Shown one piece after another: positions 1 through 29,316 of a stretch of DNA of 29,316 nucleotides. Positions within the stretch are counted from its first letter, which is position 1. Each line of letters starts with the position of its first letter. A program made the position numbers and the translations under genes. Origin of the DNA: a virus; IMG/VR virus record IMGVR_UViG_3300031215_000052, positions 1-29,316 of that record; one strand, 5' to 3'. The notes under the pieces are model-generated. The model was not told the DNA's origin and made no database searches. It worked only from the letters and a program-made list of their open reading frames with translations.

Positions 1-53
1 ATGACTAATTTCTGGCGGTAAATTTGACAAGCATTTTCTGTACAGCCAATTAA

Positions 54-62
54 TGCTAAAAT
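54..62 (+). promoter_or_regulatory. Extended -10 promoter, leaderless start
   Basis: TGC followed by TAAAAT (57-62), then exactly six bases, then the ATG at 69. Transcription would begin at or next to the start codon, and no Shine-Dalgarno sequence is visible. A TTGACA at 24-29 lies too far upstream (27-base spacer) to be its -35 box. The same geometry recurs at 2337, 8065 and 19936. Confidence 0.6.
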
Positions 63-68
63 AAAAGC

Positions 69-404
69 ATGAAAACTATAGAATTGACGTTTATTAAAAA
101 GGTTGCTGATTCAGTTGATGCATTTAACAATCCAACATATACAACACAAAATATAGCTGTACCTGGTTGTTTGATAGCGCCAATTACAGAACCAACTAGC
201 GCTAGAGAACAGCAAGCAATAGAACAATCTAAAGATCAGATCAGAATCCATATACCTAAATCTTATACTGGTGATGTTAGCAATTCTGATATTGTTTATG
301 GCGGTAAAACGTTTCACCTAGATAGTGATAGTGTTTCTTTTATGAATGAGAATACTCCAACGCCCTGGAATCGTTATATCAGAGCTGAAAGCGTAAATGC
401 TTAA
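69..404 (+). CDS. Putative head-to-tail stopper (head completion) protein
   Basis: Protein of 111 residues, rich in beta-strand pattern, with a basic-hydrophobic N-terminus, a GCLIAPI segment, a central helix (about 43-53) and a C-terminal stretch ending near PWNRYIRAESV. This layout (short beta protein with a YGGKTFHL-like strand) matches head-closure/stopper proteins of siphoviruses, which seal the portal channel and receive the tail. The gene is followed 2 nt later by a tail-terminator-like gene, which supports a neck role. It would be translated from a leaderless message. The family call rests on pattern and context, not on a diagnostic motif. Confidence 0.55.
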   Translation: MKTIELTFIKKVADSVDAFNNPTYTTQNIAVPGCLIAPITEPTSAREQQAIEQSKDQIRIHIPKSYTGDVSNSDIVYGGKTFHLDSDSVSFMNENTPTPWNRYIRAESVNA

Positions 405-406
405 TT

Positions 407-763
407 ATGAATATTGAAGCTACAGTAATTACATGGTTAAACTCTATTCTAGATGATGGATGGATTGCATACGGTGATAAGCCAAAAGGTGAGAATGCTG
501 AATTTGTTTTAGTTGATAGGACTGGCGGTCCTAGAGAATCAATGGTTTTAGATCAAGCAGAAATACTAATTGAAGTGTATGAAAAAAATAGCAGATCCGC
601 AGCTAGTATTAAAGCTGATAATATAGCTGATAGAATTATTGAATTAGAAGCTTACGCTTCAAACATTACGCGCGCTAAAGTAAATTCAGTTGTTAATCTA
701 GATGATACTGTAGATAGTTATTACAGATATCAAATTTATTGTGATGTGTTTAACAGGCGCTAG
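407..763 (+). CDS. Putative tail terminator protein
   Basis: Protein of 118 residues. It opens with a helix (IEATVITWLNSIL), followed by a strand-rich middle (AEFVLVDRTGG), a helix of the form SAASIKADNIADRIIELE, and a final strand pair ending YYRYQIYCDVF. This helix-strand pattern is typical of siphovirus tail terminators, which cap the last ring of the tail tube and dock to the head. It begins 2 nt after the preceding neck gene and is probably translationally coupled to it. Placing stopper and terminator ahead of the scaffold and capsid genes is unusual. Confidence 0.6.
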   Translation: MNIEATVITWLNSILDDGWIAYGDKPKGENAEFVLVDRTGGPRESMVLDQAEILIEVYEKNSRSAASIKADNIADRIIELEAYASNITRAKVNSVVNLDDTVDSYYRYQIYCDVFNRR

Positions 764-773
764 TATAAAATAG

Positions 774-803
774 TTGTTCAGATTAATATGGTTATGTTAT
801 AGT
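774..803 (+). promoter_or_regulatory. Promoter for scaffold/capsid genes
   Basis: TTGTTC (774-779) and an extended -10 TGT-TATAGT (795-803) with an 18-base spacer, in the 89-bp gap before the scaffold gene. The roughly 43-nt leader holds a small hairpin (CAGG 822-825 with CCTG 832-835) and a good Shine-Dalgarno AAAGGA at about 838-843. Confidence 0.55.
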
Positions 804-852
804 TAGTTTAAGTCAGAAATACAGGTTACGCCCTGGAAAGGAAAGCGGATAA

Positions 853-1329
853 ATGGCTGAATATTTTACAAAAGATGGTGATGAGTACAAAAAAGTAGAT
901 GATACTTTATTTACTCAATCTGATATAGATACAACTATCATGCCTGATAGATTGAATCGTGAACGCAAGAAATATGCGGATTATGATGATCTAAAAGAAA
1001 AGGCTGGTAAATTCGATTCTGTAACAGAGGAACTGAACACTAAAATTACTACAGCTGAATCTGCTAAAACAGATTTGGTAAAGCAACTTGAAAAAGCAAA
1101 GCTGGATACAGAAAAAGTAAGAATAGTGAATGAGTTTAAACTATCTGCAGATCATGAAGAATTTGTTACAGGTGATACTGTTGAAGAATTGCGCAAGAAG
1201 GCTGAAAAGCTATCACGCGGAGTTGGTACAACAAAAATTACACCTAAGAAATCTGGCAAACCAGAAAACGCAGAAACAGATTCAAAAGTTCTAGCAGGAA
1301 AATTATTTGGCAAAAAATCTGGCGATTAA
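853..1329 (+). CDS. Capsid scaffolding protein
   Basis: Highly charged 158-residue protein that is mostly helical. A long coiled-coil stretch (about residues 45-95, rich in K, E, A and L) is followed by a lysine-rich C-terminal tail ending KLFGKKSGD. Low hydrophobicity, coiled coil, basic C-terminus and position 34 nt before the major capsid gene are the classic signature of a scaffold that directs procapsid assembly and binds capsid subunits through its C-terminal tail. No protease motif is visible, so a separate or host protease, or scaffold exit without cleavage, is implied. Confidence 0.75.
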   Translation: MAEYFTKDGDEYKKVDDTLFTQSDIDTTIMPDRLNRERKKYADYDDLKEKAGKFDSVTEELNTKITTAESAKTDLVKQLEKAKLDTEKVRIVNEFKLSADHEEFVTGDTVEELRKKAEKLSRGVGTTKITPKKSGKPENAETDSKVLAGKLFGKKSGD

Positions 1330-1363
1330 ATTAAATTAATTCTTAGAAGGAATAATAATCGTT

Positions 1364-2266
1364 ATGGCAAATCCTCTTTTAACTACAGCTTTAGATCTAG
1401 CTAATCACACTGGTGATGCATGGTCTAAAAACATTCGCGGTGGTGTTCTATCCACACTAGCGCCTTCATTACCTGATATTAAAGTTGGTTCAACTGATCA
1501 CTTTACATTTACAGGCACACCAAAAGCAGAACTAGTTGGTGAAGGTGAAAATAAATCTTCACAAGATGGCACACCTAGCAAGGTTACTGCTAAAACATAT
1601 AAAGTACAGATCACTTACCGCTTTAGCCATGAGCTAATGTGGGAAGATGAAGATTACCAGGCTGGTATTGTTGATGGTCTAGTAGCTAATGTTGCAACTG
1701 CACTTAGTCGCGCACTGGACTTGCTAGCTATTCATGGTGTAAACCCTGCAACTGGTACTGTTTCTGCAAGTGTTAGCAACTACTTCACTAAAGCTGGCAA
1801 CGGTGTTGGTCAAGTAACAGCAACCGCTGATGCTAGTGCAGATCTAGAATCTGCAGCAACACAGCTACAAGGTGCTGGTTACGTTGCAACTGGTATAGCA
1901 ATGGATCCGCTATATGCAGGCGCACTATCACGTGTTAAAGATACTGATGGTCGCAAACTATACCCTGAACTTGGTCTAGGTTTTGGATTTACAAGTTTTG
2001 AAGGTCTACAGGCTGCATCTAGTGATACAGTATCTGGAAGGCAAGAGCTTGCTGCACTTGATGTTAAAGTTAAATCAATCGTTGGTGACTTTAACGCATT
2101 CAAATGGGGTGTAGCACGTGAAATGCCACTAGAAACCATTGAATTTGGTGATCCAGATGGTCAAGGTGACTTGAAGCGCACAAACGAAATTGCAATTAGA
2201 GCTGAATCAGTTCTAGGATTTGCAATCTTTGATGGCGCAGCATTCTCAGTCATTGCAGATGCCTAA
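1364..2266 (+). CDS. Major capsid protein (HK97 fold)
   Basis: Protein of 300 residues, the right size for an HK97-fold capsid subunit without a long delta domain. Features seen include a glycine-threonine-rich N-arm, the segment TYKVQITYRFSHELMWED typical of the E-loop to spine-helix transition, a long helix with VANVATALSRALDLLAIHG, and a C-terminal beta region ending in RAESVLGFAIFDGAAFSVI. It follows the scaffold gene and is closed by a strong terminator, as expected for the most highly expressed structural gene. Its codon choice is biased toward GGT, GCA and CTA. The call is confident from length, layout and context. Confidence 0.85.
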   Translation: MANPLLTTALDLANHTGDAWSKNIRGGVLSTLAPSLPDIKVGSTDHFTFTGTPKAELVGEGENKSSQDGTPSKVTAKTYKVQITYRFSHELMWEDEDYQAGIVDGLVANVATALSRALDLLAIHGVNPATGTVSASVSNYFTKAGNGVGQVTATADASADLESAATQLQGAGYVATGIAMDPLYAGALSRVKDTDGRKLYPELGLGFGFTSFEGLQAASSDTVSGRQELAALDVKVKSIVGDFNAFKWGVAREMPLETIEFGDPDGQGDLKRTNEIAIRAESVLGFAIFDGAAFSVIADA

Positions 2267-2288
2267 ACGCTAAAGCAATAGCTACAAT

Positions 2289-2317
2289 AAAAGCCTGGTT
2301 AATTCCAGGCTTTTTTG
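2289..2317 (+). terminator. Rho-independent terminator after capsid gene
   Basis: Nine-base stem AAAGCCTGG / CCAGGCTTT around the loop TTAATT, followed by a T-run. It ends the capsid transcript, and the next promoter starts 5 nt later. Confidence 0.9.
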
Positions 2318-2321
2318 TTTA

Positions 2322-2330
2322 TGCTAAAAT
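2322..2330 (+). promoter_or_regulatory. Extended -10 promoter, leaderless start at 2337
   Basis: TGC-TAAAAT immediately after the capsid terminator. The -10 box ends six bases before the ATG at 2337, and no Shine-Dalgarno is visible. An earlier in-frame ATG at 2331 directly abuts the -10 box, so it could not be included in the mRNA. Confidence 0.65.
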
Positions 2331-2336
2331 ATGTAC

Positions 2337-2543
2337 ATGGTAAGAAAACAGCGCTTATTTTTTAACACTAAAACTGGTAGTATTGTTAGTGCTTTAAAGC
2401 ATCAGGTTAAACGTTTACCAGAAGATTATCAAGAAATAGAATTTACTAAAAATGAATCAGGTACAGCGGTTATGCGGTTTAGGTTTAATGGCGCAACTGT
2501 AGATGTATTAGATAATACAGAAAAGGCGCTACCAAATGGCTAG
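2337..2543 (+). CDS. Small hypothetical protein in head module
   Basis: A 68-residue basic protein beginning MVRKQRLFFNTK, with strand-like segments (IEFTK, AVMRFRFNGATVDVL). I do not recognise a family. The start at 2337 is chosen over the in-frame ATG at 2331 because the promoter geometry (TAAAAT, six bases, ATG) matches the other leaderless genes in this genome. It overlaps the next gene by 8 nt. Its place between capsid and MuF-like genes suggests a minor structural or assembly role, but that is inference. Confidence 0.7.
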   Translation: MVRKQRLFFNTKTGSIVSALKHQVKRLPEDYQEIEFTKNESGTAVMRFRFNGATVDVLDNTEKALPNG

Positions 2544-2844
2544 TGAAACCCAAAAAACCTATATTGCTGATTTAGCTACAGTAAAAACTAAAGAGTTTAA
2601 AGAAGTAAAAGAACTTATTTTAGCAAGTGGAATTGTTTCTGATCAAGCTGAAATAGTAAATAGCGCGCAATCAATTGCACAAATAACTGATGCACTAACA
2701 GATTTGCAAGCATCACAGTTTATAGATGTTTTGATTAAATCTAAAACACCAAAGCGTGAAAACGCTTATTCATCTAAAAGAATAGATAAAACAATTGCTG
2801 CACTTGATGATATAAAAAAAACAATTGCAGCCTGGACGTTTTAA
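2536..2844 (+). CDS. Hypothetical helical protein
   Basis: A 102-residue helical protein. It begins SETQKTYIADLA and continues with repeated short helices (SIAQITDALTDLQASQFIDVLI), resembling the small Q-x-x-x-I-x-x-L / A-x-x-x-I-D-x-L helical modules found at the ends of various phage DNA-associated proteins. The C-terminal part has two lysine-rich helices. No catalytic residues are evident. It overlaps its upstream neighbour by 8 nt and abuts the MuF-like gene with no gap, so it is cotranslated with head genes. Function unknown. Confidence 0.65.
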   Translation: MASETQKTYIADLATVKTKEFKEVKELILASGIVSDQAEIVNSAQSIAQITDALTDLQASQFIDVLIKSKTPKRENAYSSKRIDKTIAALDDIKKTIAAWTF

Positions 2845-3378
2845 ATGGATTATTCAATTTTTACTAAAACAATACTGGCAAAAGTGTTGAAGGCGTTAGC
2901 TTTAATAAATAATCCAGAAATTGAACCTGCAGTAAGGCAATTAAATCAAGAAATATTATTTAGAGAAGTTGGTCAATCAGTTTACGCTAAAATTTATGAA
3001 ATGAATGCATTTGATTTTGAAATAGAATTTACTACTGGCGCAGGAATAGATGATAGATATTATGGATTGGCAAAAGTAGCAGGCGCAAGTGTTGCAACTG
3101 GCGCGCTAGGTCTTGATGAATATGTTGAAAACTATATTGATAACACAATAGGTAAAGCGCAAAAAGATGCGGTATCAAATGCGCGCCAAAGTGGTAAATT
3201 TCCTACTGTAACACGCACTGAATCATCCAGCGCTTGTGAATGGTGTCAATCTAAAACTGGCACATTTACAGATCCTGATTCTTCTATATTTGCGCGGCAT
3301 GGCGGTTGTAAGGGCAAGATTGTTACAGAAGGCTTTAAATCTAGGAATGGCTTATTAGGCAATTATGCAAGTAGCTGA
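2845..3378 (+). CDS. MuF-like minor head (morphogenesis) protein
   Basis: Protein of 177 residues whose C-terminal third carries the hallmark of MuF-type minor capsid proteins: an arginine-rich strand (TVTRTESSSA), then C-x2-C (CEWC), then a glycine-rich segment, then FARHGGCKGKIV with the paired histidine and cysteine. MuF proteins bind the portal on the inside of the procapsid and may be ejected with the DNA. The family is commonly fused to or next to the portal; here the portal gene follows after one intervening gene. The protein is short compared with full MuF proteins (often 250 or more residues). It overlaps the RusA gene by 14 nt. Confidence 0.75.
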   Translation: MDYSIFTKTILAKVLKALALINNPEIEPAVRQLNQEILFREVGQSVYAKIYEMNAFDFEIEFTTGAGIDDRYYGLAKVAGASVATGALGLDEYVENYIDNTIGKAQKDAVSNARQSGKFPTVTRTESSSACEWCQSKTGTFTDPDSSIFARHGGCKGKIVTEGFKSRNGLLGNYASS

Positions 3379-3739
3379 AATAACGCTAAATGATAATGTA
3401 ATAGTTAAAAAAAATAACCGCGCTTTATGGCAAAATGAAGATGGCAGGCAAATGAGCGCGCCCAGCAAAGACTTTAAAGCCTGGCAAAAATCTGCAATGA
3501 TTGAATCAAGAATGCAGTGTAGAACGCGTTTTATCAAGCCTGTTTCATTAGAAGTAATTGTATATTTTGGCACTAAACACAGATCTGATCTAGATAATAG
3601 ATTAACTAGCATTCTGGATATGCTGGTTGAATGCGTAATACTAAAAGATGATAGCTGGTTATGTATACCACTGATTCAGGTGCAAGCTGAATATCGTAAA
3701 AAGAAGCCTGGCGCATTCATACGTATTACAGAGCTTTAG
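3365..3739 (+). CDS. rusA: RusA-family Holliday junction resolvase
   Basis: Protein of 124 residues with the RusA signature: R-x-D-x-D-N at about 73-78 (D75, D77), then L-D-M-L with D85, then V-I-x-D-D (D95-D96), and a lysine-rich segment (RKKKPG, 111-116) before the final beta strand IRITEL. In this family the conserved aspartates bind magnesium and cleave four-way junctions symmetrically. The length is right for a dimeric RusA. The gene sits inside the head module rather than in a replication operon, overlapping the MuF-like gene by 14 nt, so the resolvase should be made late, when concatemers or branched DNA are cleared for packaging. Confidence 0.85.
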   Translation: MQVAEITLNDNVIVKKNNRALWQNEDGRQMSAPSKDFKAWQKSAMIESRMQCRTRFIKPVSLEVIVYFGTKHRSDLDNRLTSILDMLVECVILKDDSWLCIPLIQVQAEYRKKKPGAFIRITEL

Positions 3740-3764
3740 CATAATGTGATAAAATAAGCATATC

Positions 3765-3773
3765 TGATATAAT
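3765..3773 (+). promoter_or_regulatory. Extended -10 promoter for portal operon
   Basis: TGA-TATAAT in the 91-bp gap before the portal gene, leaving a leader of about 50 nt that contains the shared 31-nt element and the Shine-Dalgarno AAAGGA. Confidence 0.7.
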
Positions 3774-3788
3774 AGAACTAACAATAAT

Positions 3789-3819
3789 TTACGCTTACGG
3801 TTGCGGTAAAACTGGCTAA
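3789..3819 (+). repeat. Shared 31-nt leader element, copy 1 (portal)
   Basis: A 31-nt block with one mismatch to 8390-8420. The core TTACGGTTGCGGTAAAACTG lies between an extended -10 promoter and the start codon in both copies. It can fold weakly (TTACG with CGGTAA around GTTG). It lies in the transcribed, untranslated leader, so it is more likely an RNA-level or operator signal than a duplicated gene fragment. Confidence 0.75.
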
Positions 3820-3830
3820 AAAGGATAAAT

Positions 3831-5174
3831 ATGCCAGCACAAGTGCAACCAGTAGATCCAGTAACAGAAATGCTAGAAAATGCAGCAAGTGATCTGTTAG
3901 AAACTCTTACACTTAAATCTTCTAAAGTCAAAACTAAATATGAATACTATAATGCTGATAATGGCATTAGGGATTTTGGTATTTCTACACCTAAAAGCAT
4001 GGTTCACACAATGCCAGGTATTGGATGGGCTGGTAGAGCTGTAAACACACTATCTGATAGAGTTTTATTTGATGGTTTTGCACAAGATACATTTGGTATC
4101 AATAATTATTTTGAAGATATTAATGCTTATAGTGTCATTGGAAAAGCTAAACAAGATGCGTTTATTGCAGGTTGCGCTTTTATTATGGTTGCTGATGATG
4201 AATTGACTGATCGTAAATTACTAGTGCCATTTACTGCAGAAGAAGCAACTGGTGAAATAGATCAAACAACTGGTTTATTGAAATATGGTTTAGCAGTAAC
4301 TAAATGGTCACCACCACCAAAAAAAATAAAAAATATTAAGTATACACCATCTGATTATATGGTGTTTACACCTAACTATACTGCAGTTTTTGTAGGTCGC
4401 ACATTGTCAGAAATAGTACCAAATCCAACAGGTCGCGTTTTACTGCATCCAATTACACATAGATCCAGCGCTGATCGTCCATTAGGTAAATCTAGGCTTA
4501 CAAATACCGCGCGCAGAATTATACAAGAAGTTGGAAGATTAAAAAGGCGTGAAGAAATAGCAGAAGAATTTTATGCACTACCACAGCGTTATATTAATGG
4601 ACTTGCAGAAGGTGCTACTAAAGATCCTAATTTGGATTCTGCAGTTGGTAAAGTATGGTCAATTACTAAGGATGAAGAAGGTGAAAAACCTGATGTAGGT
4701 CAATTGCCGCAAATGTCAATTGATGGATTCATTGGCGCTAAAAAAGATAAAGCACGTGATTTTTGCGCAGAAACTGCATTAACACTTAGAAACTTAGGTT
4801 ATGAAACAGGAAATCCATCTAGTCCTGAAAGTTTAGCTGCAATGTCAGATGATTTGTTATTAGAAGCTACAAATTCACAAACAGAAATGGGTAATCAAAT
4901 TAAGCAGATTGCTATTACACTTAGATTGGCTGCTAATCAAACGGATACAATACCTGAACAATTGAATGATCTAATACCAGCCTGGAAGCCTATATTCCAG
5001 GTAGATATTGGTGCTGCAGGTGATGCAATGTTTAAATTGTTCAATGTCATGCCAGAACTACAAGGCACAGTATCTGGTTATAGAATGCTAGGTATTGGAA
5101 TTAGAGAAGCTGAAACACTTGCAAAAAAGCGATTGGCAGCGCAAGGCAGTAGCTTCATGAAGGGTAATCAATAA
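3831..5174 (+). CDS. Portal protein
   Basis: Protein of 447 residues with the layout of SPP1 gp6-type portals. The N-terminal helices are followed by GIGWAGRAVNTLSDRVLFDGF, a wing region with strands (YMVFTPNYTAVFVGR), then HRSSADRPLGKSRLTNTARRII (the stretch preceding the stem), and a long helical C-terminal half with LAAMSDDLLLEATNSQTEMG. The dodecameric portal forms the DNA entry and exit channel at one capsid vertex. The gene has its own promoter and leader and lies downstream of the capsid gene, opposite to the usual portal-before-capsid order. The adaptor gene follows 1 nt after the stop codon. Confidence 0.85.
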   Translation: MPAQVQPVDPVTEMLENAASDLLETLTLKSSKVKTKYEYYNADNGIRDFGISTPKSMVHTMPGIGWAGRAVNTLSDRVLFDGFAQDTFGINNYFEDINAYSVIGKAKQDAFIAGCAFIMVADDELTDRKLLVPFTAEEATGEIDQTTGLLKYGLAVTKWSPPPKKIKNIKYTPSDYMVFTPNYTAVFVGRTLSEIVPNPTGRVLLHPITHRSSADRPLGKSRLTNTARRIIQEVGRLKRREEIAEEFYALPQRYINGLAEGATKDPNLDSAVGKVWSITKDEEGEKPDVGQLPQMSIDGFIGAKKDKARDFCAETALTLRNLGYETGNPSSPESLAAMSDDLLLEATNSQTEMGNQIKQIAITLRLAANQTDTIPEQLNDLIPAWKPIFQVDIGAAGDAMFKLFNVMPELQGTVSGYRMLGIGIREAETLAKKRLAAQGSSFMKGNQ

Positions 5175-5175
5175 C

Positions 5176-5604
5176 ATGCCTACTTTAACACCATTTGCTA
5201 CTACAGCTGAATTAGCAGCTTACTGGCGCACTTTAACTGCAGAAGAAACAACAAGATCTGCAGTAATGCTTACACTAGCTAGTAATAGGCTAAGGGTATT
5301 GGCTACTAATGAAAGCGTTGATCTGGATACTAAAATAATAGATGATGAAGCGTTTAAATCAACCTTGCAATGGGTTGTAATGGAATCTGTAAAACGCGCC
5401 ATTGCAACACCAACAGATCAACCATCTGTAGAAACATGGTCACAGACTGCAGGTCCATATTCTGAAAACTATAAATATGCTAATTCTAGCGGTGATATTT
5501 ACTTTAAAAAAGCAGAATTGTTTGCACTAGGAATAAAAGGAAAACAGTCATTAGGAAGTATCAGTACTACAAAAACTGATATATATGGTGAGTCAATAGT
5601 TTAG
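5176..5604 (+). CDS. Head-to-tail adaptor (connector) protein
   Basis: Protein of 142 residues starting with helical segments (TTAELAAYWRTLTAEE, RSAVMLTLASNRLRVLA) and a further helix with WVVMESVKRAIA, then a glycine/tyrosine-rich tail (TAGPYSENYKYANSSGDIYF) leading to a last helix. This is the pattern of Gp19/Gp15/Gp42-type connectors that form the ring directly under the portal. Immediate adjacency to the portal gene (one base between stop and start) supports the call. Confidence 0.75.
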   Translation: MPTLTPFATTAELAAYWRTLTAEETTRSAVMLTLASNRLRVLATNESVDLDTKIIDDEAFKSTLQWVVMESVKRAIATPTDQPSVETWSQTAGPYSENYKYANSSGDIYFKKAELFALGIKGKQSLGSISTTKTDIYGESIV

Positions 5605-5605
5605 T

Positions 5606-5866
5606 ATGGATATTAAGTTTATAGCATTAATATTCATAACACTGGTAGTAGGTGCATTTAGTGGATATTTAATAGGTCGCACTAAAACATTTGGTGATAC
5701 TAAAGTTAGCATACTACAGATTTTTGGAATGACTGCATTTTTAATGTATTTTGGTGGCGCTATTGGTGGTCTTATTGAATTTAATGAAGTAGCATTGAGT
5801 ATAATATTAGCGTTTACTAGCGGTGAAACAGTCGGTGAAGCAATTAAGGGAGTTACAAAAAAATGA
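5606..5866 (+). CDS. Small membrane protein, two predicted helices
   Basis: Protein of 86 residues with an N-terminal hydrophobic helix (about 4-23, ending GYLIGRTK) and a second hydrophobic, glycine-rich region (about 37-75). It starts 1 nt after the adaptor stop codon and overlaps the next gene by four bases (ATGA). It is not a recognisable holin, since a better candidate sits next to the endolysin at 15728. A membrane protein inside the head-tail operon is unexpected for a virion role; superinfection exclusion or another host-envelope role are possibilities. Confidence 0.65.
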   Translation: MDIKFIALIFITLVVGAFSGYLIGRTKTFGDTKVSILQIFGMTAFLMYFGGAIGGLIEFNEVALSIILAFTSGETVGEAIKGVTKK

Positions 5867-6387
5867 AGCATCAAAGAAATATTATCAAAGATTTAAAATA
5901 TTCTTTACTTGGTATGATGGTTGTTTTTTTATTATCTTTACTTGGTTTTGCAGGATTTAATTTTGCACAAGGTCAATATTATAATTATCAACAAAATCAA
6001 GATCAACGCTACTATCAAACAGTTAGTAGTGATGAGCTTCTTAATGTTAAGTCTGTTTTAGCACCTGAAAAACTAGAGCAGGGCAAAGATCTGTTGGTTG
6101 AATTTTGTAGAGAACCAATAGCAAGAATAGTCGCAGTAAATAATATTAGAACTTTTTACATTGATGAAGATGGTAAAGAAGTTGCAGTTAAACAGCGTCA
6201 ATTACCAGATGGTATAGAATATGAAACAACAGAAGATAATTGCCCTATAATTGCAATACAGGCAATAAATCAACCACAACAATTAGGATTGTATAGATTT
6301 TGCCAGCGCTTTGAATTTCCAGTTAGAGGTAATGAAAAAATTGCTACTTTTTGTACAACTGAATACGAATTGATTCCACCTAAATAA
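5863..6387 (+). CDS. Membrane-anchored extracytoplasmic protein
   Basis: Protein of 174 residues with a basic N-terminus (KHQRNIIKDLK), one strong membrane helix (about 13-35), a glutamine/tyrosine-rich linker, and a beta-rich outer domain holding four cysteines (in EFCREP, DNCPII, RFCQRF and TFCTTE). Four cysteines in an exported domain suggest disulfides. The topology (short inside, long outside) and the ATGA overlap with the upstream membrane gene suggest the pair acts at the envelope. A lipoprotein is unlikely because no lipobox is seen. A second single-helix, cysteine-bearing exported protein lies at 22043. Confidence 0.65.
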   Translation: MKHQRNIIKDLKYSLLGMMVVFLLSLLGFAGFNFAQGQYYNYQQNQDQRYYQTVSSDELLNVKSVLAPEKLEQGKDLLVEFCREPIARIVAVNNIRTFYIDEDGKEVAVKQRQLPDGIEYETTEDNCPIIAIQAINQPQQLGLYRFCQRFEFPVRGNEKIATFCTTEYELIPPK

Positions 6388-6393
6388 TACTTA

Positions 6394-6402
6394 TGTTATA
6401 AT
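6394..6402 (+). promoter_or_regulatory. Extended -10 promoter for major tail protein
   Basis: TGT-TATAAT just after the preceding stop codon, giving a leader of about 60 nt with the Shine-Dalgarno GAAAGG close to the ATG at 6469. Confidence 0.7.
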
Positions 6403-6468
6403 TGTGTTATAGGGTAGAGCTTCTGAAACATGTTGTTGTACTGATATTCTTATGAAAGGTTATTAATT

Positions 6469-7017
6469 ATGAATGATGCTAGCAACGTAACATTTGGTAA
6501 ACCAAAATCAACTGGTGCAGTATTTGTAGCACCTGCAGGCACAGCAATACCTGTTGATGCAACAACTGCTTTAGATGCAGCGTTTGAAGGTCTAGGCTAT
6601 GTTAGTGAAGATGGTTTAGTAAACAGTACAGAAGCAGATACAAGTTCTATAAATGCATGGGGTGGTGATCAGGTTCTAGTTGGTCAAACTACATTTAATG
6701 AAATGTTTACAGTAAACGCAATAGAAACTAATGCAGAAGCATTAAAAGTCTATTACGGTGAAGATAACGTAACAGTTGTTGGTGATGCAATAACAATTAC
6801 ACAAAATAGCGATATGCTACCAAATGTTGTTGTTGTTTTTGAGCTAGTGCTTACAGGTGGCAGGATTAAAAGAATCGTAGTACCAAATGCACAGATTACT
6901 GATCGTAGCGGTGAAATTACTTATGTAGATGGTGAAGCAGTCACATATCCACTAGTATTTACAGCGTATCCAGATGGTAGTGGTAATACGCACACTGAAT
7001 ATATCGCAGTAGTTTAA
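6469..7017 (+). CDS. Major tail (tube) protein
   Basis: Protein of 182 residues. The N-terminus reads GKPKSTGAVFVAPAGTAIP and is followed by FEGLGYVSEDGLVNSTEADTS, the pattern of siphovirus tube proteins where a mobile N-arm precedes strands that stack into hexameric rings. The C-terminal half is beta-rich (VVVFELVLTGGRIKRIVVP, then ITYVDGEAVTYPLVFTAY). It has its own promoter and terminator, as expected for an abundant virion protein, and is followed by the tail chaperone genes. Confidence 0.85.
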   Translation: MNDASNVTFGKPKSTGAVFVAPAGTAIPVDATTALDAAFEGLGYVSEDGLVNSTEADTSSINAWGGDQVLVGQTTFNEMFTVNAIETNAEALKVYYGEDNVTVVGDAITITQNSDMLPNVVVVFELVLTGGRIKRIVVPNAQITDRSGEITYVDGEAVTYPLVFTAYPDGSGNTHTEYIAVV

Positions 7018-7040
7018 TCTAAAGCGTTTAAATACATTAG

Positions 7041-7065
7041 CACCTGGTCATGCCAGGTGTTTTTG
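7041..7065 (+). terminator. Rho-independent terminator after major tail gene
   Basis: Seven-base stem CACCTGG / CCAGGTG with loop TCATG and a following TTTTTG. The promoter for the chaperone genes starts 5 nt later, the same terminator-promoter arrangement as after the capsid gene. Confidence 0.9.
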
Positions 7066-7069
7066 TTTA

Positions 7070-7078
7070 TGCTATAAT
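7070..7078 (+). promoter_or_regulatory. Extended -10 promoter for tail chaperones
   Basis: TGC-TATAAT directly after the tail-protein terminator. The leader is about 23 nt and ends in GGAG at 7096-7099, which is placed well for the ATG at 7108. Confidence 0.7.
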
Positions 7079-7107
7079 TTTAGTATTAAATTAACGGAGT
7101 GGATAAA

Positions 7108-7413
7108 ATGCCAGATACTAAAGAAGTAGCTAATAAAAACCCTAAAAGCACAGTAACAGATTTAGAAATTGATGGTTTTAAATTTACTGTTGATACAGAT
7201 CTAATTGATGATGTTGAAGCATTTGAATGGATTAATGCCATTGAATCAGAAAACAAAATAACAGCAGTAGTACCATTGCTTCATTTTCTTATTGGTAAAG
7301 ATGGTTATGAAAAGATGAAAGCGCACTACATTGAACAGGATGGTAGATTTAGAGCTACTAAGTTGATGGAAGTTTACCAGCTAATAATTAAGCATTTTAA
7401 CCCAAAAGGCTAA
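7108..7413 (+). CDS. Tail assembly chaperone (G-type)
   Basis: Protein of 101 residues, acidic at the N-terminus, with a beta segment (VTDLEIDGFKFTVD) and helices ending IIKHFNPKG. Size, position between the tube protein and tape-measure genes, and the slippery site at its 3' end identify it as the shorter of the two tail chaperones that coat the tape measure during tail assembly. The start at 7108 is preferred over an in-frame GTG at 7099 because GGAG (7096-7099) is spaced correctly for the ATG. The stop TAA is at 7411-7413, just after the frameshift heptamer. Confidence 0.85.
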   Translation: MPDTKEVANKNPKSTVTDLEIDGFKFTVDTDLIDDVEAFEWINAIESENKITAVVPLLHFLIGKDGYEKMKAHYIEQDGRFRATKLMEVYQLIIKHFNPKG

Positions 7414-7435
7414 CGCTTGCCAGAATACGTTGGCA
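7401..7435 (+). other. Programmed -1 ribosomal frameshift site
   Basis: Heptamer CCCAAAA at 7401-7407, in the required phase (zero frame C-CCA-AAA), one codon before the stop. A 5-bp hairpin follows (TGCCA 7418-7422 with TGGCA 7431-7435). Slipping back one base keeps lysine pairing exactly and opens the second frame, which runs without a stop to 7811. This is the known G/GT mechanism of long-tailed phages. Confidence 0.85.
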
Positions 7436-7811
7436 GTATTTTGATGAGCTTGAAGCAGATTTTCAAGAGTATTACCGCATAGATATAAATGATTTATCAG
7501 TGCAGCCTGAACGCCTGGCAAGGCTTCTATTTCAATTGCCTAGACAATCTAGGGTATTTACTAAACTAGCACCAGAAAACCAGTGGAGTTGGCAGGAAAT
7601 ATTGTTAAATAAAAGCAATTACTTACTTGAAGTGCTTACATGGCAAAAAACTAAAGATGCGCAAAAAAGAAATCCATCTAAAGCACCTAAAATATTCATT
7701 CCAGATTTTATGCCTAAACAAGAAACGCAAACAGCAATCAATAAAGATTCTGAATTACATGATTCAAAATCAATTGATGCAATACTATCAAAACCGCGCC
7801 AGAATAAATAA
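7407..7811 (+). CDS. Tail chaperone T-domain, made as a -1 frameshift fusion
   Basis: Open frame of 134 codons from the slippery site to the TAA at 7809-7811, giving a fusion of about 234 residues with the upstream chaperone. The segment right after the shift reads WQYFDELEADFQEYYRID, leading into NDLSVQPERLARLLFQLP, a pattern typical of T-domains; the rest is basic and helical. The first plausible independent start (GTG at 7500) would cut this conserved part away, and no ribosome site precedes it, so I read this frame as expressed only by frameshifting. The fusion is the minor chaperone that recruits tube subunits to the tape measure. Confidence 0.85.
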   Translation, partial: RLTLARIRWQYFDELEADFQEYYRIDINDLSVQPERLARLLFQLPRQSRVFTKLAPENQWSWQEILLNKSNYLLEVLTWQKTKDAQKRNPSKAPKIFIPDFMPKQETQTAINKDSELHDSKSIDAILSKPRQNK

Positions 7812-7868
7812 TGTGTTCAGTTGTCGTATAGTCGCGTAAAGCCATTTGGCTATACAATACCTATTAGT

Positions 7869-7918
7869 TATAAACACACTATTAACGCAGGTCAACTAGC
7901 GTTAAACACATGTTTATA
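7869..7918. other. Two-tier stem-loop in a 253-bp non-coding gap
   Basis: Outer stem TATAAACA / TGTTTATA (8 bp), a 5x5 internal loop, inner stem TTAACGC / GCGTTAA (7 bp) and a 10-nt loop. A T-rich tract (GCGTTTTATT) follows, so it may end the chaperone transcript. A smaller inverted repeat (GTATAG / CTATAC, around AGCC-ATTT-GGCT) lies at about 7826-7855. The rest of the gap 7812-8064 has no gene I can support. Confidence 0.6.
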
Positions 7919-8052
7919 GCGTTTTATTGTTCGTATTTTGTTCTACCACTTCCCTGCTTAGTATATTATGAAATATTTTTTACGTTTAAGGTGTTAAATT
8001 ATCAAACAGGGGATGCAACAGGGTGGATAGGGCAGGCTGATTACGCGTAAGG

Positions 8053-8058
8053 TATACT
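8053..8058 (+). promoter_or_regulatory. -10 box, leaderless start at 8065
   Basis: TATACT followed by six bases and the ATG at 8065, the same spacing as at 69, 2337 and 19936. A possible AAGG at 8049-8052 lies 12 bases from the ATG, too far for a good Shine-Dalgarno. No clear -35 box. Confidence 0.5.
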
Positions 8059-8064
8059 ATTAGT

Positions 8065-8358
8065 ATGGGTAGAAATGAATCATTTCAGTTAGATGTTAAA
8101 GGCGGTCAAGATGTTTTACAAAAGATGGCTGCACCATTAGTAAAACAATCTGCAGAAGCAATAGCTGCAAGGGCGCGCGGAATGGCTTCTAGCCTATCTA
8201 GCAATCCACCAACTATAACTGTAGAAACTAAAGTAGGAACTATTAAAAGAGGTCTTAGGGCTATAGCTACTGTTAAAGCAGAAGGCAGTGATGCGCATGA
8301 AAATTATATAGGTCATAAGGTCCTAGCAAAAGCTAAAGATGCAGGGCGCGTTAATTAG
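8065..8358 (+). CDS. Putative minor neck/tail-completion protein
   Basis: Small basic protein of 97 residues. An N-terminal helical half (VLQKMAAPLVKQSAEAIAARARGMASSL) is followed by a strand-rich half (TITVETKVGTIKRGLRAIATVKAEG) and a short tail. The pattern of a helix rich in A and R followed by strands recalls small neck or tail-completion proteins normally found beside the stopper and tail terminator in phages of Gram-positive hosts. Its location between the tail chaperones and the tape measure is then unusual. It is probably leaderless. Family assignment is weak. Confidence 0.4.
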   Translation: MGRNESFQLDVKGGQDVLQKMAAPLVKQSAEAIAARARGMASSLSSNPPTITVETKVGTIKRGLRAIATVKAEGSDAHENYIGHKVLAKAKDAGRVN

Positions 8359-8367
8359 TAATTGTTA

Positions 8368-8376
8368 TGTTATAAT
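8368..8376 (+). promoter_or_regulatory. Extended -10 promoter for tape measure operon
   Basis: TGT-TATAAT shortly after the preceding stop, with a leader of about 53 nt containing copy 2 of the 31-nt element. Confidence 0.7.
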
Positions 8377-8389
8377 TTGAGTATATAAA

Positions 8390-8420
8390 TTACGTTTACG
8401 GTTGCGGTAAAACTGGCTAA
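8390..8420 (+). repeat. Shared 31-nt leader element, copy 2 (tape measure)
   Basis: Matches 3789-3819 at 30 of 31 positions and has the same placement: after an extended -10 box and shortly before a purine-rich ribosome site. The surrounding sequence (both promoters' flanks and the coding starts) is not similar, so the element itself is what is conserved. Confidence 0.75.
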
Positions 8421-8435
8421 TGAAGGGTTAAGATC

Positions 8436-16326: not shown

Positions 16327-16704
16327 TCATTTAACCTGTTCTAAAGATTTACTACCCTTCATGTTATTGCAGTAGATGCAGGCAGGTTTAATATTATCTA
16401 AATTAAAGCGCAAGCCTGGCGCGCGTGATCTACTAACAACATGGTCTAGCGTTACACTATCCGCATCTAATCTAACAGGACACCAGGGATGGATATTTAA
16501 ATAACAAATCCAATATATACCATCAACAGGTGGTGGGTTTTTCCTAAACCATGTAGCGCGTGTTATGAACCATTGTTTAGTTGTTTTTCCTATTTTTTTA
16601 ATAGGCACTTGCTTTAATGCTTTTTTAGGTTTTTTAAAACATTGATATGGATAATGCCCCATTGCGTGACAAATTTTGCAAGCTTTTTTTGGTCTACGGT
16701 CCAT
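16327..16704 (-). CDS. Zinc-knuckle HNH endonuclease, only minus-strand gene
   Basis: About 125 residues. The N-terminus has a CCHC zinc knuckle, C-x2-C-x4-H-x4-C (CKICHAMGHYPYQC), followed by a lysine-rich linker. The C-terminal half is an HNH nuclease: WICYLNIHPWC, then TLDHVVSRSRAPG (Asp-His pair), then NLDNIKPACIYCNNMKGS. Zinc knuckles bind single-stranded nucleic acid, so this may be a structure- or RNA-guided-site nuclease; packaging help is plausible given the nearby terminase. ATG at 16704 (minus) is chosen because GGAG lies 8 bases upstream; ATG at 16710 is too close to it. Its coding strand carries three GACC, reversing the rule for plus-strand genes. Confidence 0.85.
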   Translation of the reverse strand: MDRRPKKACKICHAMGHYPYQCFKKPKKALKQVPIKKIGKTTKQWFITRATWFRKNPPPVDGIYWICYLNIHPWCPVRLDADSVTLDHVVSRSRAPGLRFNLDNIKPACIYCNNMKGSKSLEQVK

Positions 16705-16729
16705 TTTCATAACTCCAGTCTTTTTTATC

Positions 16730-21247: not shown

Positions 21248-21274
21248 ATTAGGTAAACAGAGGGAGTTGTTTTA

Positions 21275-22041: not shown

Positions 22042-22042
22042 G

Positions 22043-22426: not shown

Positions 22427-22427
22427 C

Positions 22428-22541: not shown

Positions 22542-22543
22542 CT

Positions 22544-23831: not shown

Positions 23832-23835
23832 ATTT

Positions 23836-24269: not shown

Positions 24270-24682
24270 TGGATTGTGAACAAATCGGTGAAGGCATAAT
24301 TATTAGCGGTAATTTTGCTGAACGCACTAAAGAAATGCCAAAAGATTTTGATCATACTACTACTGGTAAATGGTATGCACCGTATACAATGCAGTGGCGT
24401 GAAACATTAGGCGGCACTATCTGCAGTTGCAAACAGGTTAAAGTAAATTTTGCGCCATATTATGGATATGATTATTTCCACATGGATTATTGCAATCTAA
24501 TGAAAAAACTTAGAGATTATCCACAAATTGAATCATTGGTTGAAACATATCTACCAGCAATGCACCAATATCATGATGCAGTGCCAGCTGATACGCACAC
24601 ACCGCTATATATCAAAGGTCGTAGCAGCAAAGGGAAGCGCATACCAGTAAATGTAACTAAAGGAGAACAACTAGATGAGTAG
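24269..24682 (+). CDS. Hypothetical protein at left edge of cassette
   Basis: Protein of 137 residues with CSC and further cysteine/histidine residues in the middle (TICSCKQVKVNF, then FHMDYCNLMKKL) that could bind a metal, and a lysine/arginine-rich end (KGRSSKGKRIPVNV). It uses the phage's own codon style and contains GGTC near 24619, but its last codons lie within the direct repeat that begins the foreign cassette, so its C-terminus (TKGEQLDE) may have been altered by that insertion. Confidence 0.6.
   Translation: MDCEQIGEGIIISGNFAERTKEMPKDFDHTTTGKWYAPYTMQWRETLGGTICSCKQVKVNFAPYYGYDYFHMDYCNLMKKLRDYPQIESLVETYLPAMHQYHDAVPADTHTPLYIKGRSSKGKRIPVNVTKGEQLDE
24660..24681 (+). repeat. Direct repeat A, copy 1
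   Basis: 22-nt block covering the ribosome site (AAGGAGAACAA) and start of the methyltransferase gene; matches 25204-25225 at 21 of 22 positions, with the ATG at the same place in both. Confidence 0.8.
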
Positions 24683-25205
24683 GCAGGTTTTTTCTCATAC
24701 GACACAAGATGAGTATTACACACCCAAATATGCTGTAAAAATAATTGCAGATAGAATACTACCAAGTACAGAAGTGATATGGTGTCCATTTGATAAAGAG
24801 GATAGTAATTATGTAGTAGTTTTACGCAACATGGGCTTTAAGGTGGTGGCAACGCATATAGACAACGGAGAGAATTTTTTGACTTATAAACCAGTTTTCC
24901 CTTTTGATATGATAGTAAGTAACCCACCTTTTTCCCTAAAGACAGAGATACTCCAGAAGTGCCTAGAATATGATAAGCCCTTTGCACTACTACTACCGTT
25001 TACTATGTTAAACTCCATAAAAACCATCAATCAAATAGCTAAGTGTGATATACAGTTTTTGATAATGGACAGACGCATTAGTTTCAATGGGGAAAGACCT
25101 AATTTTACTTGTTGGTATGTCTGTTATGATGTGCTGGACAGAAGCATAGAATACTACTTGTTTGATAAAGACCCTAAAGAATTATATAAACTTGAAATCG
25201 CTTAA
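24675..25205 (+). CDS. Putative N6-adenine DNA methyltransferase
   Basis: Protein of 176 residues. Motifs seen: EYYTPKYAVKIIADRI (14-28), a feature of Rossmann-fold adenine methyltransferases that precedes the cofactor site; IWCPFDKEDS (35-44) in the place of motif I; and MIVSNPPFSLK (79-89), where NPPF is catalytic motif IV for amino-methylation. The protein is small with no obvious target-recognition domain, and relatives in phages are sometimes annotated otherwise. I see no restriction partner, so a self-protective or orphan enzyme is likely. Its DNA style is foreign to the phage. Target site unknown. Confidence 0.75.
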   Translation: MSRQVFSHTTQDEYYTPKYAVKIIADRILPSTEVIWCPFDKEDSNYVVVLRNMGFKVVATHIDNGENFLTYKPVFPFDMIVSNPPFSLKTEILQKCLEYDKPFALLLPFTMLNSIKTINQIAKCDIQFLIMDRRISFNGERPNFTCWYVCYDVLDRSIEYYLFDKDPKELYKLEIA

Positions 25206-25225
25206 GGAGAACAAGTAGATGAGTA
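25204..25225 (+). repeat. Direct repeat A, copy 2
   Basis: Second copy of the 22-nt ribosome-site/start-codon block, just before the second cassette gene at 25219. With copy 1 it brackets the methyltransferase gene precisely, so recombination between them would remove or add that gene cleanly. Confidence 0.8.
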
Positions 25226-25440
25226 AAGTAGATGATATATTACTAATATTAGACTCTGAATGGCAATACAAGATTGACACTGCCAAAGAACAACTACTAG
25301 CCGAGGTGTTGGATATGATAGGGGGCTGGCATAAATACCCAAGCAAAGCATTACCAGGTGATGAAGCCTACGTCATAGCTGAAACAATAAATAAGCGTAA
25401 CACCGAACTCCGTCAAGCAGCTAAAGAAAGGTTTAAGTAA
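25219..25440 (+). CDS. Hypothetical protein in cassette
   Basis: Protein of 73 residues, helical and charged (ILLILDSEWQYKIDTAKEQL, then YVIAETINKRNTELRQAAKE). No family recognised. It has foreign codon use like the methyltransferase, a good AGGAG ribosome site inside repeat A, and a one-base overlap (TAATG) with the next gene, so the three cassette genes are co-translated. Confidence 0.6.
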   Translation: MSKVDDILLILDSEWQYKIDTAKEQLLAEVLDMIGGWHKYPSKALPGDEAYVIAETINKRNTELRQAAKERFK

Positions 25441-25664
25441 TGAGTAATACACTTAATGCACTTAATGCACTAGAAGCATTCAAAGATGCTCTAGTGAACG
25501 ATGCAAGAGCTAAATCAAATGGGTACGTCAATGGCGATATGTTCTATGACAATACTATGACTATATTAGGAAGAGAGCCTAGTTCTGCTGAATGGCAACA
25601 CTTCAAGAATGTAAGAATCCTTCACCGTGAAGTTGACCATAAAGATGGGTGGGAGAAGCTATGA
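25440..25664 (+). CDS. Hypothetical protein in cassette
   Basis: Protein of 74 residues. It starts with a short internal duplication (ACTTAATGC twice in the DNA, giving LNALNAL), followed by a helical body and the C-terminal SSAEWQHFKNVRILHREVDH. Foreign codon style and one GACC at 25635. Its stop overlaps the next start (ATGA), where repeat B recurs, marking the right edge of the cassette. Function unknown. Confidence 0.55.
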   Translation: MSNTLNALNALEAFKDALVNDARAKSNGYVNGDMFYDNTMTILGREPSSAEWQHFKNVRILHREVDHKDGWEKL

Positions 25665-25867
25665 GTAATACAGCAGAGAAAGAATTAGAAAAAAACTGTG
25701 GCACTAGAGTATATCGCGGATCAGTAGGCTGCAAATGTTTAACCTGCACTACCATTAGCAGTGAAGGTTTAGTTATTCATGATGATATGCATGCCAGATA
25801 CCTGTTTGATTGGACTGGTGAAGGCGTTAAATACTTTACAACTAAAGAAGAAGTGGGTAAATCATGA
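25661..25867 (+). CDS. Small cysteine-rich protein
   Basis: Protein of 68 residues. The block CGTRVYRGSVGCKCLTC resembles the small H/C-G-T-x-x-x-Y-x-x-G-C-x-C-x-x-C modules common in phages of actinobacteria, probably a zinc site. I use ATG 25661 (ATGA overlap) rather than ATG 25649, which would overlap the upstream gene by 16 nt. Its first codons are repeat B, so the junction with the cassette lies at or before them; the rest returns to the phage's own codon style. Confidence 0.6.
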   Translation: MSNTAEKELEKNCGTRVYRGSVGCKCLTCTTISSEGLVIHDDMHARYLFDWTGEGVKYFTTKEEVGKS

Positions 25868-26163: not shown

Positions 26164-26165
26164 TC

Positions 26166-27272: not shown

Positions 27273-27274
27273 CC

Positions 27275-27535
27275 ATGAATATTCAAGATAGAATAGATCA
27301 AGCCAAAAAACAAATCAACTGGCAAGAAGGTAGAGAACCTACAGCATTAGAGTATTTGCGCAATTACAGGCATGGAAGCATTGGTGAAGTTCACATGCTA
27401 GCAATACTAAGTGCTGAAAAAGCATTTATTAAAATGGAAACTTTAGAAATTACTGATCCTAATCTAAATTTAGCAGTAGATTTAAACAGTGATTACCCTA
27501 AAGTAATAGATCTAACTACTAAGAAGGAGTTTTAA
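27275..27535 (+). CDS. Hypothetical protein
   Basis: Protein of 86 residues, 2 nt downstream of its neighbour. Helix with DRIDQAKKQINWQEGREPTA, then LEYLRNYRHGSIGEVHMLAI, ending in an acidic strand-like segment. No family recognised. Confidence 0.6.
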   Translation: MNIQDRIDQAKKQINWQEGREPTALEYLRNYRHGSIGEVHMLAILSAEKAFIKMETLEITDPNLNLAVDLNSDYPKVIDLTTKKEF

Positions 27536-27536
27536 C

Positions 27537-27821
27537 ATGGACACTAAACAATACTGGAAGAATCGTAAAGAAGGCAAGCGCGGTCAAGGTGAACGCAATG
27601 AACAAACATTTTATGCAAAAGGTGATGATATTAAATACTTAACGCGTGAAGGTAAAGAAGAATTATATCCTAATGCCACTGGCAGCCACATGATAAAAAA
27701 AGATGGCAGGTTGCAGATGGTGAATCGTAAAGAAGCGCGTAGCAAATCTAGAAGCCATCCAGCTACTAAGAAAAACTATGCATATCAAGTTAAGAAGCGC
27801 AATTTTAGCCATGCCAGCTAA
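27537..27821 (+). CDS. Basic hypothetical protein
   Basis: Protein of 94 residues, extremely basic (KQYWKNRKEGKRGQGERN at the start, KEARSKSRSHPATKKN towards the end), likely nucleic-acid binding. Good AAGGAG ribosome site. No motif recognised. Overlaps the next start by 11 nt. Confidence 0.6.
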   Translation: MDTKQYWKNRKEGKRGQGERNEQTFYAKGDDIKYLTREGKEELYPNATGSHMIKKDGRLQMVNRKEARSKSRSHPATKKNYAYQVKKRNFSHAS

Positions 27822-28068
27822 GAATCCTAAAACAGGTGTATATGAACTGCTAAAAGATCTACCTGATTACAAGGCTGGTCAAAGGTTCACACTATACCAG
27901 GATTCAATGAAATCACTTAGAGTAATGGACAATGGCAACAAGATAGAGTTTTGCAAATACATATATGACTTTATACTAATACCTGAATGGTTTAAGTATT
28001 TAGGCAAGTCAGAACCAGCTGCATTTAATAAAGCACCAGTAAAAGATAAGGATATAAATCATGGGTAA
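27811..28068 (+). CDS. Hypothetical protein
   Basis: Protein of 85 residues from ATG 27811; the longer frame from 27778 would sit deeper inside the previous gene. Small beta-rich pattern (AGQRFTLYQDSMKSLRVMDN, then EFCKYIYDFILIPEWFK). No family recognised. Confidence 0.6.
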   Translation: MPAKNPKTGVYELLKDLPDYKAGQRFTLYQDSMKSLRVMDNGNKIEFCKYIYDFILIPEWFKYLGKSEPAAFNKAPVKDKDINHG

Positions 28069-28498
28069 TTTAACTGATCACGCTAAATATGAACTAGAAC
28101 TAGCAGGATTATTTGATAAAGATTCAGATTATGATGGCATGCTAGGCACAGCAGTCATGGAATTAGTAGAAAAGTTTTCTGAACAAGGTCACAGTGGCGC
28201 AAGCGCCAGCATAGTTCTATCACTGTTTAAAGAAGTAGTAATGTTTAAGAATCTTACACCTATTACTAGTAATCCAGATGAATGGTTAGATCAATCAGAA
28301 ATGAGTGAAGAACCTATATGGCAAAACAAACGTAGAAGCAGTAGCTTTTCACGTGATGGTGGCAAAACTTGGTATGATATTGATGATCGTAAGTATAATA
28401 ACGGTGATACATGGAAGAAAAAGCCAAATGGCGCGGAAAAATCACCTGAAACACCTAAACCAACTAAAAAAGCTAAGAAAACTAAAGATGCAAGCTAA
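28061..28498 (+). CDS. Conserved-type phage hypothetical protein
   Basis: Protein of 145 residues. The N-terminal part (HAKYELELAGLFDKDSDYDG, then MLGTAVMELVEKFSEQGHSG) is a helical block I recognise as recurring across many unrelated phages, though its function is not known to me. The middle contains NPDEWLDQ and a short strand region QNKRRSSSFSRDGGKTWYDI, and the tail is lysine/proline-rich. Confidence 0.75.
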   Translation: MGNLTDHAKYELELAGLFDKDSDYDGMLGTAVMELVEKFSEQGHSGASASIVLSLFKEVVMFKNLTPITSNPDEWLDQSEMSEEPIWQNKRRSSSFSRDGGKTWYDIDDRKYNNGDTWKKKPNGAEKSPETPKPTKKAKKTKDAS

Positions 28499-28733
28499 AC
28501 CTACTGTATTTACTACTGATACGTGTTCTAAATGCCCTGCAGTAAAGAAATGGATGGCACATAAGGGTATTGAATACAATGAAGTGAACATTACTAATGA
28601 TATAAGCTTAATCAAACCTGCTAGTGATATATCAGGTATGTTTACAGTGCCACAAACGCTTGCACCTAATGGGGTAGTTATTGTTGGTCCTAATTATGGC
28701 AAACTTGCGCAGAATATCATCAATGACAGGTAA
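28488..28733 (+). CDS. Glutaredoxin/NrdH-like redox protein
   Basis: Protein of 81 residues from ATG 28488. Thioredoxin-fold pattern: strand VFTTDTC, active site C13-S-K-C16 followed by PAVKKWMAHKGIEYNEVNI, then the cis-proline strand TVPQTLAPNGVVIVG and a last helix. NrdH proteins reduce ribonucleotide reductase; no reductase gene is in the window, so it may serve the host enzyme. It overlaps its upstream neighbour by 11 nt. Confidence 0.8.
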   Translation: MQAKPTVFTTDTCSKCPAVKKWMAHKGIEYNEVNITNDISLIKPASDISGMFTVPQTLAPNGVVIVGPNYGKLAQNIINDR

Positions 28734-28965
28734 TATATTAGGCTGTATAGCTAGAAATAGCACTACAACTGATGGCATTAAGATATCTGGTCACGTGTTC
28801 AGTGCAGAATATGCCACTGTAGATGAAGAAACAGATAGAATATATCTATTAGATATATGTATTGATTGTGGCAAGCCTAGTGCTAGTTTTCTTAGTGAAG
28901 GCAGCACTATGAAAGATAAATTGCTAGATACCTACAAGGTAATCATGAAAGTAGGTGCTGAATAG
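28723..28965 (+). CDS. Hypothetical protein, last gene of early operon
   Basis: Protein of 80 residues from ATG 28723 (11-nt overlap). Contains ICIDCGKP, a C-x2-C, and another cysteine near the start (ILGCIARN), so a metal or disulfide is possible. Strand-rich centre (SGHVFSAEYATVDEETDRIY). No family recognised. Confidence 0.6.
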   Translation: MTGNILGCIARNSTTTDGIKISGHVFSAEYATVDEETDRIYLLDICIDCGKPSASFLSEGSTMKDKLLDTYKVIMKVGAE

Positions 28966-29316
28966 GTAGTTACATTGGTGCTGCAAGGCAAATGATTTGT
29001 TCTTTAGCGTTGCAGGTGAATGGTCGCAGCATAGTAGTAGAAGCGTAATGCGTTAATGCAAAGCTGATTAGATAACCAGCCATAACCAGTGAGATGGTAT
29101 TAGGTTTAATAAGCGCCACATTGTTGATGGCGCTTATTAATTTATTGTTTACATCTAGCAAGCTACCACGCCATCCAGCGCTAGATCATATTTTAATAAT
29201 AAAATAATAGTGTTTATAAAATTGGTGTTCAAATAGATTGTAGGTACTTTATTTTTAATTTAAGCGTGGGTAATTTACATGGGGGGAGTACCACCTTCAT
29301 CTTGTGAAACCTGCAC
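28966..29316. other. Non-coding right end
   Basis: 351 bases without a supportable gene. It contains one GGTC (about 29009), a strong terminator (29106-29147), an AT-rich stretch (29185-29260) and a run of six G at 29281-29286. No tRNA, integration site or promoter of the local type was recognised. Confidence 0.6.
29106..29147 (+). terminator. Very strong terminator ending the early operon
   Basis: Perfect 13-base stem TTAATAAGCGCCA / TGGCGCTTATTAA with a 9-nt loop, followed by TTTATTGTTT. The left arm is also preceded by AT-rich DNA, so it may work in both directions. Confidence 0.85.

Follow-up and report, generated by a model that had tools for sequence, protein, structure and literature searches.

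The phage genome and its relatives

The virus record IMGVR_UViG_3300031215_000052 (29,316 bp, analysed over its whole length and called the window, or G000) is the genome of a small tailed phage, with genes for a major head protein, portal, tape measure, Dit and terminase large subunit. About 55 open reading frames (ORFs) lie on the plus strand and one convincing gene, encoding an HNH endonuclease, on the minus strand. This work concerns short asymmetric words that occur in one orientation only on the physical plus strand of this phage and its relatives. An initial annotation of the window had noticed such a polarity for the 4-mer GGTC and its reverse complement GACC.

No near DNA match to the window was found among named phages. 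Contig L017 is identical to it across 301-8799, and identity with the relatives in capsid, portal and terminase is 60-80%. One search with the terminase gave no relative among cellular genomes; the capsid alignment did. The nearest cellular sequences belong to metagenome-assembled genomes (MAGs) of Candidatus Saccharibacteria, on contigs with capsid identities of 59% and 54% and a terminase identity of 65%, so the host is probably a member of the Saccharibacteria, an assignment taken solely from these MAG-contig relatives.

GGTC and GACC in the window

Exact plus-strand counts are 70 for GGTC and 3 for GACC, in agreement with the initial annotation. ACC, put there at roughly 200, occurs 286 times. 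The positions quoted in that annotation are correct or only slightly off (7046 for 7047, 29022 for 29009). The few exceptions to the polarity lie in a block of foreign composition (Table 1), in which CTC, CGA and GAG are enriched, GCGC is absent and GC content at third codon positions exceeds that of the neighbours. The methyltransferase-like first ORF of the block has relatives in unrelated phages. The block looks imported. Outside it, Gly-Pro is written GGT-CC in six of six cases, as claimed; Arg-Pro, said to use CGT-CC in place of the favoured AGA, uses CGT three times, AGA never and CGC once.

Table 1. Coordinates of features in the window
Feature	Position	Strand	Basis or remark
HNH endonuclease gene	16327..16710	-	phrog_338 HNH, E=2.4e-9; sole convincing minus-strand gene
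ParB-like/nuclease domain protein	16815-17285		phrog_498, phrog_620, phrog_940
Compositionally foreign block, 4 small ORFs	24675..25867	+	all three GACC and the sole GCTC inside
Predicted DNA (adenine) methyltransferase-like protein, 176 aa, first gene of block	24675..25205	+	phrog_799 DNA methyltransferase, E=1.1e-31; weak EcoRI_methylase/N6_Mtase in Pfam; holds GACC 25096 and 25170
GACC exception 1	25096..25099	+	exact count
GACC exception 2	25170..25173	+	exact count
Sole plus-strand GCTC	25488..25491	+	exact count
GACC exception 3	25635..25638	+	exact count
Protein matching Tad3	28061-28498		PF25185, E=1.4e-34

A codon-preserving shuffle of the window gives an expected GGTC:GACC ratio of 47:11 against 62:3 observed (P ~0.002-0.004 for each word), and a shuffle that also keeps the dinucleotides at codon junctions gives 47.7 GGTC and 7.6 GACC against 61 and 3 (P = 0.053 for GACC). 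Because the shuffles already give 47:11 and 48:8, codon usage on a one-strand genome accounts for most of the 70:3 split and leaves a remainder that is modest but real. GACC was rejected as the strongest anomaly, being only the 61st lowest of 256 4-mers under the codon and junction null. Outside the foreign block the ratio is 70:0 (binomial p 2.3e-3 against the same null), a post hoc figure since the exclusion was chosen after the data had been seen.

One explanation would be ordinary codon usage on a one-strand genome combined with avoidance of the palindrome GGCC, with no strand-reading agent required. Nearly all genes lie on the plus strand, the Asp codon GAC is rare, and GGCC avoidance turns GGC-C into GGT-C: GGCC is absent from the window (~19-20 expected), GGC-C is down by ~16 and GGT-C up by ~12. 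The GGTC excess is largely displaced GGCC. Moreover, relatives use GGTC and GACC about equally, near 1:1, with both orientations free; we therefore rejected the 4-mer as a clade-wide word, and the claim as first made for GGTC/GACC fails by the initial annotation's own criterion, free use of both orientations in related phages. For this 4-mer alone, it is mainly codon usage and GGCC avoidance that make the split so large. As an account of the one-way words in general we regard them as unlikely, since they leave other words of the window (GCTGA 40:0, GAGC 25:0) unexplained and, as a full account, are refuted by the minus-strand genes of the relatives (see below).

One-way words in the window and its relatives

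On the plus strand outside the block, GGTCC is found at 14:0 over its complement, GCTGA:TCAGC at 40:0, GAGC:GCTC at 25:0, CGCAG:CTGCG at 19:0 and CACAG:CTGTG at 31:0. Only GCTGA (p 1.2e-8) and GAGC (p 2.5e-5) pass Bonferroni correction singly in the window, and both are stronger one-sided words than GGTC. The null here and in the relatives was the codon and junction shuffle, with the correction taken over 4-, 5- and 6-mers.

Ten relatives were read in pieces, with their ORFs called mechanically. Eighteen genome-word pairs were significant; they came from 9 of the 11 genomes, each with no more than four such words. The scan took exact, ungapped words, and no 6-mer passed. GGTCC:GGACC reaches 37:0, 23:0, 43:0, 36:0, 30:0, 43:1 and 48:1 in individual relatives and is looser in two others (G003 44:6, G006 31:4), and CGCAG:CTGCG reaches 36:0, 69:0, 29:0, 36:0, 38:0 and 48:1. 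Other words are genome-specific: GAGC:GCTC 108:0 in G001, GCAGC 46:0 in G005, TTAAC 37:0 in G003, and CCCAG 23:0 with GTTGA 36:1 in G011. The polar words differ between close relatives. A reverse preference in G016:C8 (TCAGC 56, GCTGA 6) was not relied on, its link to the physical strand not being clear.

Polarity follows the physical strand

The initial annotation had tied the polarity to the physical strand. In the window this rests on few copies: the HNH gene does carry three GGTC on the plus strand (GACC in the coding sense), which gives 3:0 in this gene and 6:0 between genes, and the total of 9:0 is weak by itself. The longer words in the relatives uphold the proposal strongly. For seven words in nine relatives, the kept word stands on the physical plus strand 97:0 within minus-strand genes and 77:1 in intergenic DNA, compared with 667:13 in the rest of the genome. 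Read in the coding sense, the minus-strand genes thus have the opposite preference, and on the physical plus strand only the kept word appears. A transcript-level (mRNA) cause was rejected on this reversal. Spurious minus-strand ORFs were likewise ruled out, codon likelihood and Pfam matches identifying real genes for glycosyltransferase, methyltransferase, epimerase, CHAP/LysM and HNH proteins. The polarity follows the physical DNA strand, independent of transcription.

Several relatives have on the minus strand an operon that encodes a glycosyltransferase, a methyltransferase and an NAD-dependent epimerase (L126:164-3500 and matching places).

Specificity, direction of avoidance and controls

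The words, their sharp specificity and their link to the physical strand are direct observations. In the related phages GGACC occurs 2 times against 74 expected and CTGCG 1 against 87; the corresponding figures are 0 against 20 for TCAGC and 0 against 33 for GCTC. Thirteen of the 15 one-base neighbours of GGACC occur at 0.78-1.56x; the other two are GGTCC itself (2.4x) and GGGCC (0.55x), which contains the avoided GGCC. Copies in the kept orientation are about as many as expected for CGCAG (256 against 238), GAGC (133 against 123) and GCTGA (40 against 33), and likewise for GCAGC and TTAAC. Hence it is the opposite orientation that is avoided and not the kept one that is favoured. In nearly all cases the kept orientation is the one made commoner by codon usage, as expected if any uniform orientation suffices. 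The kept words are spread over the whole genome and their orientation is constant, with no switch.

A constant orientation, together with the enrichment of GGTCC in several relatives, might suggest a strand-specific signal for replication, recombination or packaging (a primase site, or a Chi-like or KOPS-like sequence) that is useful in one orientation, a possibility that the initial annotation had raised for replication or packaging, pointing to T7 primase. The other words are avoided one way without being enriched the other way, several unrelated words are polar at once, and the set varies between close relatives. In 15 sampled pieces of an 864 kb Saccharimonadia chromosome (one genome, not a proven host), the clade words showed only a mild leading-strand skew and no absolute polarity, and a host replication signal was rejected on these stretches. 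We consider a signal of this kind very unlikely.

Control genomes seldom show comparable words. No polar 5-mer at p<1e-5 was found in seven named control phages or in 15 of 16 further prophage and distant-relative loci unrelated to the clade core, the exception being ATTAA:TTAAT (24:0) in the Saccharibacteria MAG phage contig L133. HP1 and KHP30 have no absolute polar 5-mer at that threshold. The known polarity of T7 was recovered (CTGCTG 36; CAGCAG 0, 6.8 expected), and T3 showed none (CAGCAG 6, 7.8 expected).

Other avoidance patterns and neighbouring genes

Palindromes are avoided as well. The window and most relatives have no GGCC or almost none, and the same holds for TCGA in the window and many relatives (L006-L026; expected up to 67 and 36). 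This loss is ordinary two-strand palindrome avoidance. G012 (L128, L129) and L028 differ from the rest of the clade in having almost no GGTCC and no GGACC (1:0), which looks like avoidance of the degenerate palindrome GGWCC.

The trinucleotide CTC is strongly avoided on the plus strand of the window, with 21 copies against 116 of GAG; coding DNA has 18 where a codon shuffle expects 129, and the word is low in both off-codon frames. Words other than GCTC seem transcript-linked in the relative G001, and we treat CTC avoidance as separate and unexplained. In the 15 kb contig L054 both strands are affected (CTC 2, 69 expected; GAG 10, 71 expected), a three-letter avoidance.

Two further genes of the window are listed in Table 1. 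The gene for the ParB-like/nuclease domain protein lies between those for the HNH endonuclease and the terminase small subunit, and the match to Tad3, an inhibitor of type I Thoeris, marks an anti-defence gene in this phage, which probably infects Saccharibacteria.

Probable escape from orientation-dependent restriction

We suggest that the one-way words are probably selected single-orientation sites that let the phages escape orientation-dependent restriction, most likely by type III restriction-modification (Mod/Res) enzymes. We infer the class of enzyme, the host and that escape takes place. Type III sites are asymmetric and 5-6 bp (PMC3874151) or 4-6 bp long, including GAGCC (PMC8259958), and the HP0593 motif is listed as GCAG (PMC3874151). 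The length and asymmetry of our words match such sites and were therefore counted in favour of type III enzymes, which methylate one strand and cut efficiently only with two head-to-head sites (PMC3874151). Such an enzyme loads at its asymmetric site of 4-6 bp, and DNA is cut only when two enzymes that started from head-to-head sites meet. A genome with all sites pointing one way would offer no head-to-head pair and would escape with a normal number of sites, while mutations creating the opposite orientation would be purged. Where one phage has several words, these may then record as many enzymes that it has encountered in its hosts. Most relatives have GGTCC and CGCAG, the window has GAGC and GCTGA, and GCAGC, TTAAC, CCCAG and GTTGA occur elsewhere. 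What we observe has this form, namely asymmetric words of 4-5 bp present many times in one orientation, polarity on the physical strand, and, GGTCC excepted, a normal number of kept copies. The type III parallel drawn by the initial annotation is thus the best fit once relatives are considered. A specificity like that of EcoP1I is not indicated: AGACC, absent from the window (1.9-3.9 expected), is used freely by relatives, with 302 copies against 194 expected. As part of the same explanation, the GGTC:GACC ratio of the window probably reflects the clade's GGTCC signal, made larger by codon usage and GGCC avoidance. Clear type III Res genes were found in ~15 of 295 Saccharimonadia genomes, two Res families having been searched. 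A text search of the literature for the polar words as type III motifs gave nothing useful.

Several points weigh against escape from type III restriction. In the window, the GGTC value obtained outside the block does not withstand correction for 120 word pairs, and GGTC/GACC is then non-significant. GGTCC is over-represented (260 against 109 expected); the excess arises in part because GGC-CC is also forbidden, and GGCC avoidance explains it only partly. Discovery and testing of the polar words used one set of related genomes, so that the lineages are not independent. Carriers of the two Res families make up only ~5% of the sampled Saccharimonadia, and type III enzymes of the probable hosts, assigned from MAG contigs only, are no more than candidate readers of these words. 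GGTCC polarity across phages that are 60-80% identical in structural proteins would need a specificity that is widespread or stable, whereas those of type III enzymes are believed to change fast. Finally, a phage survey of known type III sites saw no systematic strand-asymmetric avoidance (PMC6286503), which makes the present case unusual and calls for caution.

Other defences that sense orientation or strand could likewise leave words on one strand only, at normal site numbers. Type ISP enzymes, which also need converging translocation, cut head-to-head sites (PMC4666363). The target described for them is longer (LlaGI 6 bp; PMC4666363) than our words of 4-5 bp, where ~6 bp or more would be expected, and head-to-tail nicking has been reported for them. 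A sequence-specific nickase is a variant of this idea: nicks on one strand would be survivable, and on both strands they would become double-strand breaks. We know of no short-motif nickase of this kind in these hosts. Altogether such enzymes seem an improbable source of the words.

More tentatively, it is possible that this clade of Patescibacteria (Saccharibacteria) phages evades several orientation-sensing restriction systems at once, perhaps including defences other than type III, in which case its genomes would show which restriction specificities uncultured hosts possess. So far, escape from type III enzymes through sites in a single orientation has rested largely on T7, the genome survey having found no systematic strand-asymmetric avoidance (PMC6286503). 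If our explanation is right, one-way words would be a durable, multi-enzyme strategy across a clade, and orientation-dependent enzymes of uncultured hosts could be read from phage sequence alone. The exact motifs given here can be compared with long-read methylomes.

Comparison with known systems

Among type III systems that form N4-methylcytosine (m4C), the motifs GAGCC (Eco86II), CACC (DthLIII) and CGCC (FnoB1III) resemble the polar words in being asymmetric, 4-6 bp long and methylated on one strand (PMC8259958), although none has the exact words found here and GAGC is shorter than GAGCC of Eco86II. The clade also resembles the phages surveyed for restriction-site avoidance (Rusinov et al., 2018; PMC6286503) in that host sites are selectively removed, GGCC and TCGA being lost from both strands; unlike in that survey, where no systematic strand-asymmetric type III case was seen, avoidance of the polar words is one-stranded and clade-wide. 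The closest parallel is T7, whose 36 EcoP15I sites all face one way and which is unrestricted, whereas T3 has both orientations and is restricted (PMC3874151). Both T7 and the present phages are double-stranded DNA phages with genes mostly on one strand, and in both a short asymmetric site is present in many copies, in one orientation and at a normal number. T7 shows this for one enzyme and more weakly against the codon null (CAGCAG 0 against 6.8), whereas here a whole clade is involved, as many as four words in a genome pass Bonferroni correction, and the linkage to the physical strand is, in contrast to T7 and EcoP15I, proven by minus-strand genes.

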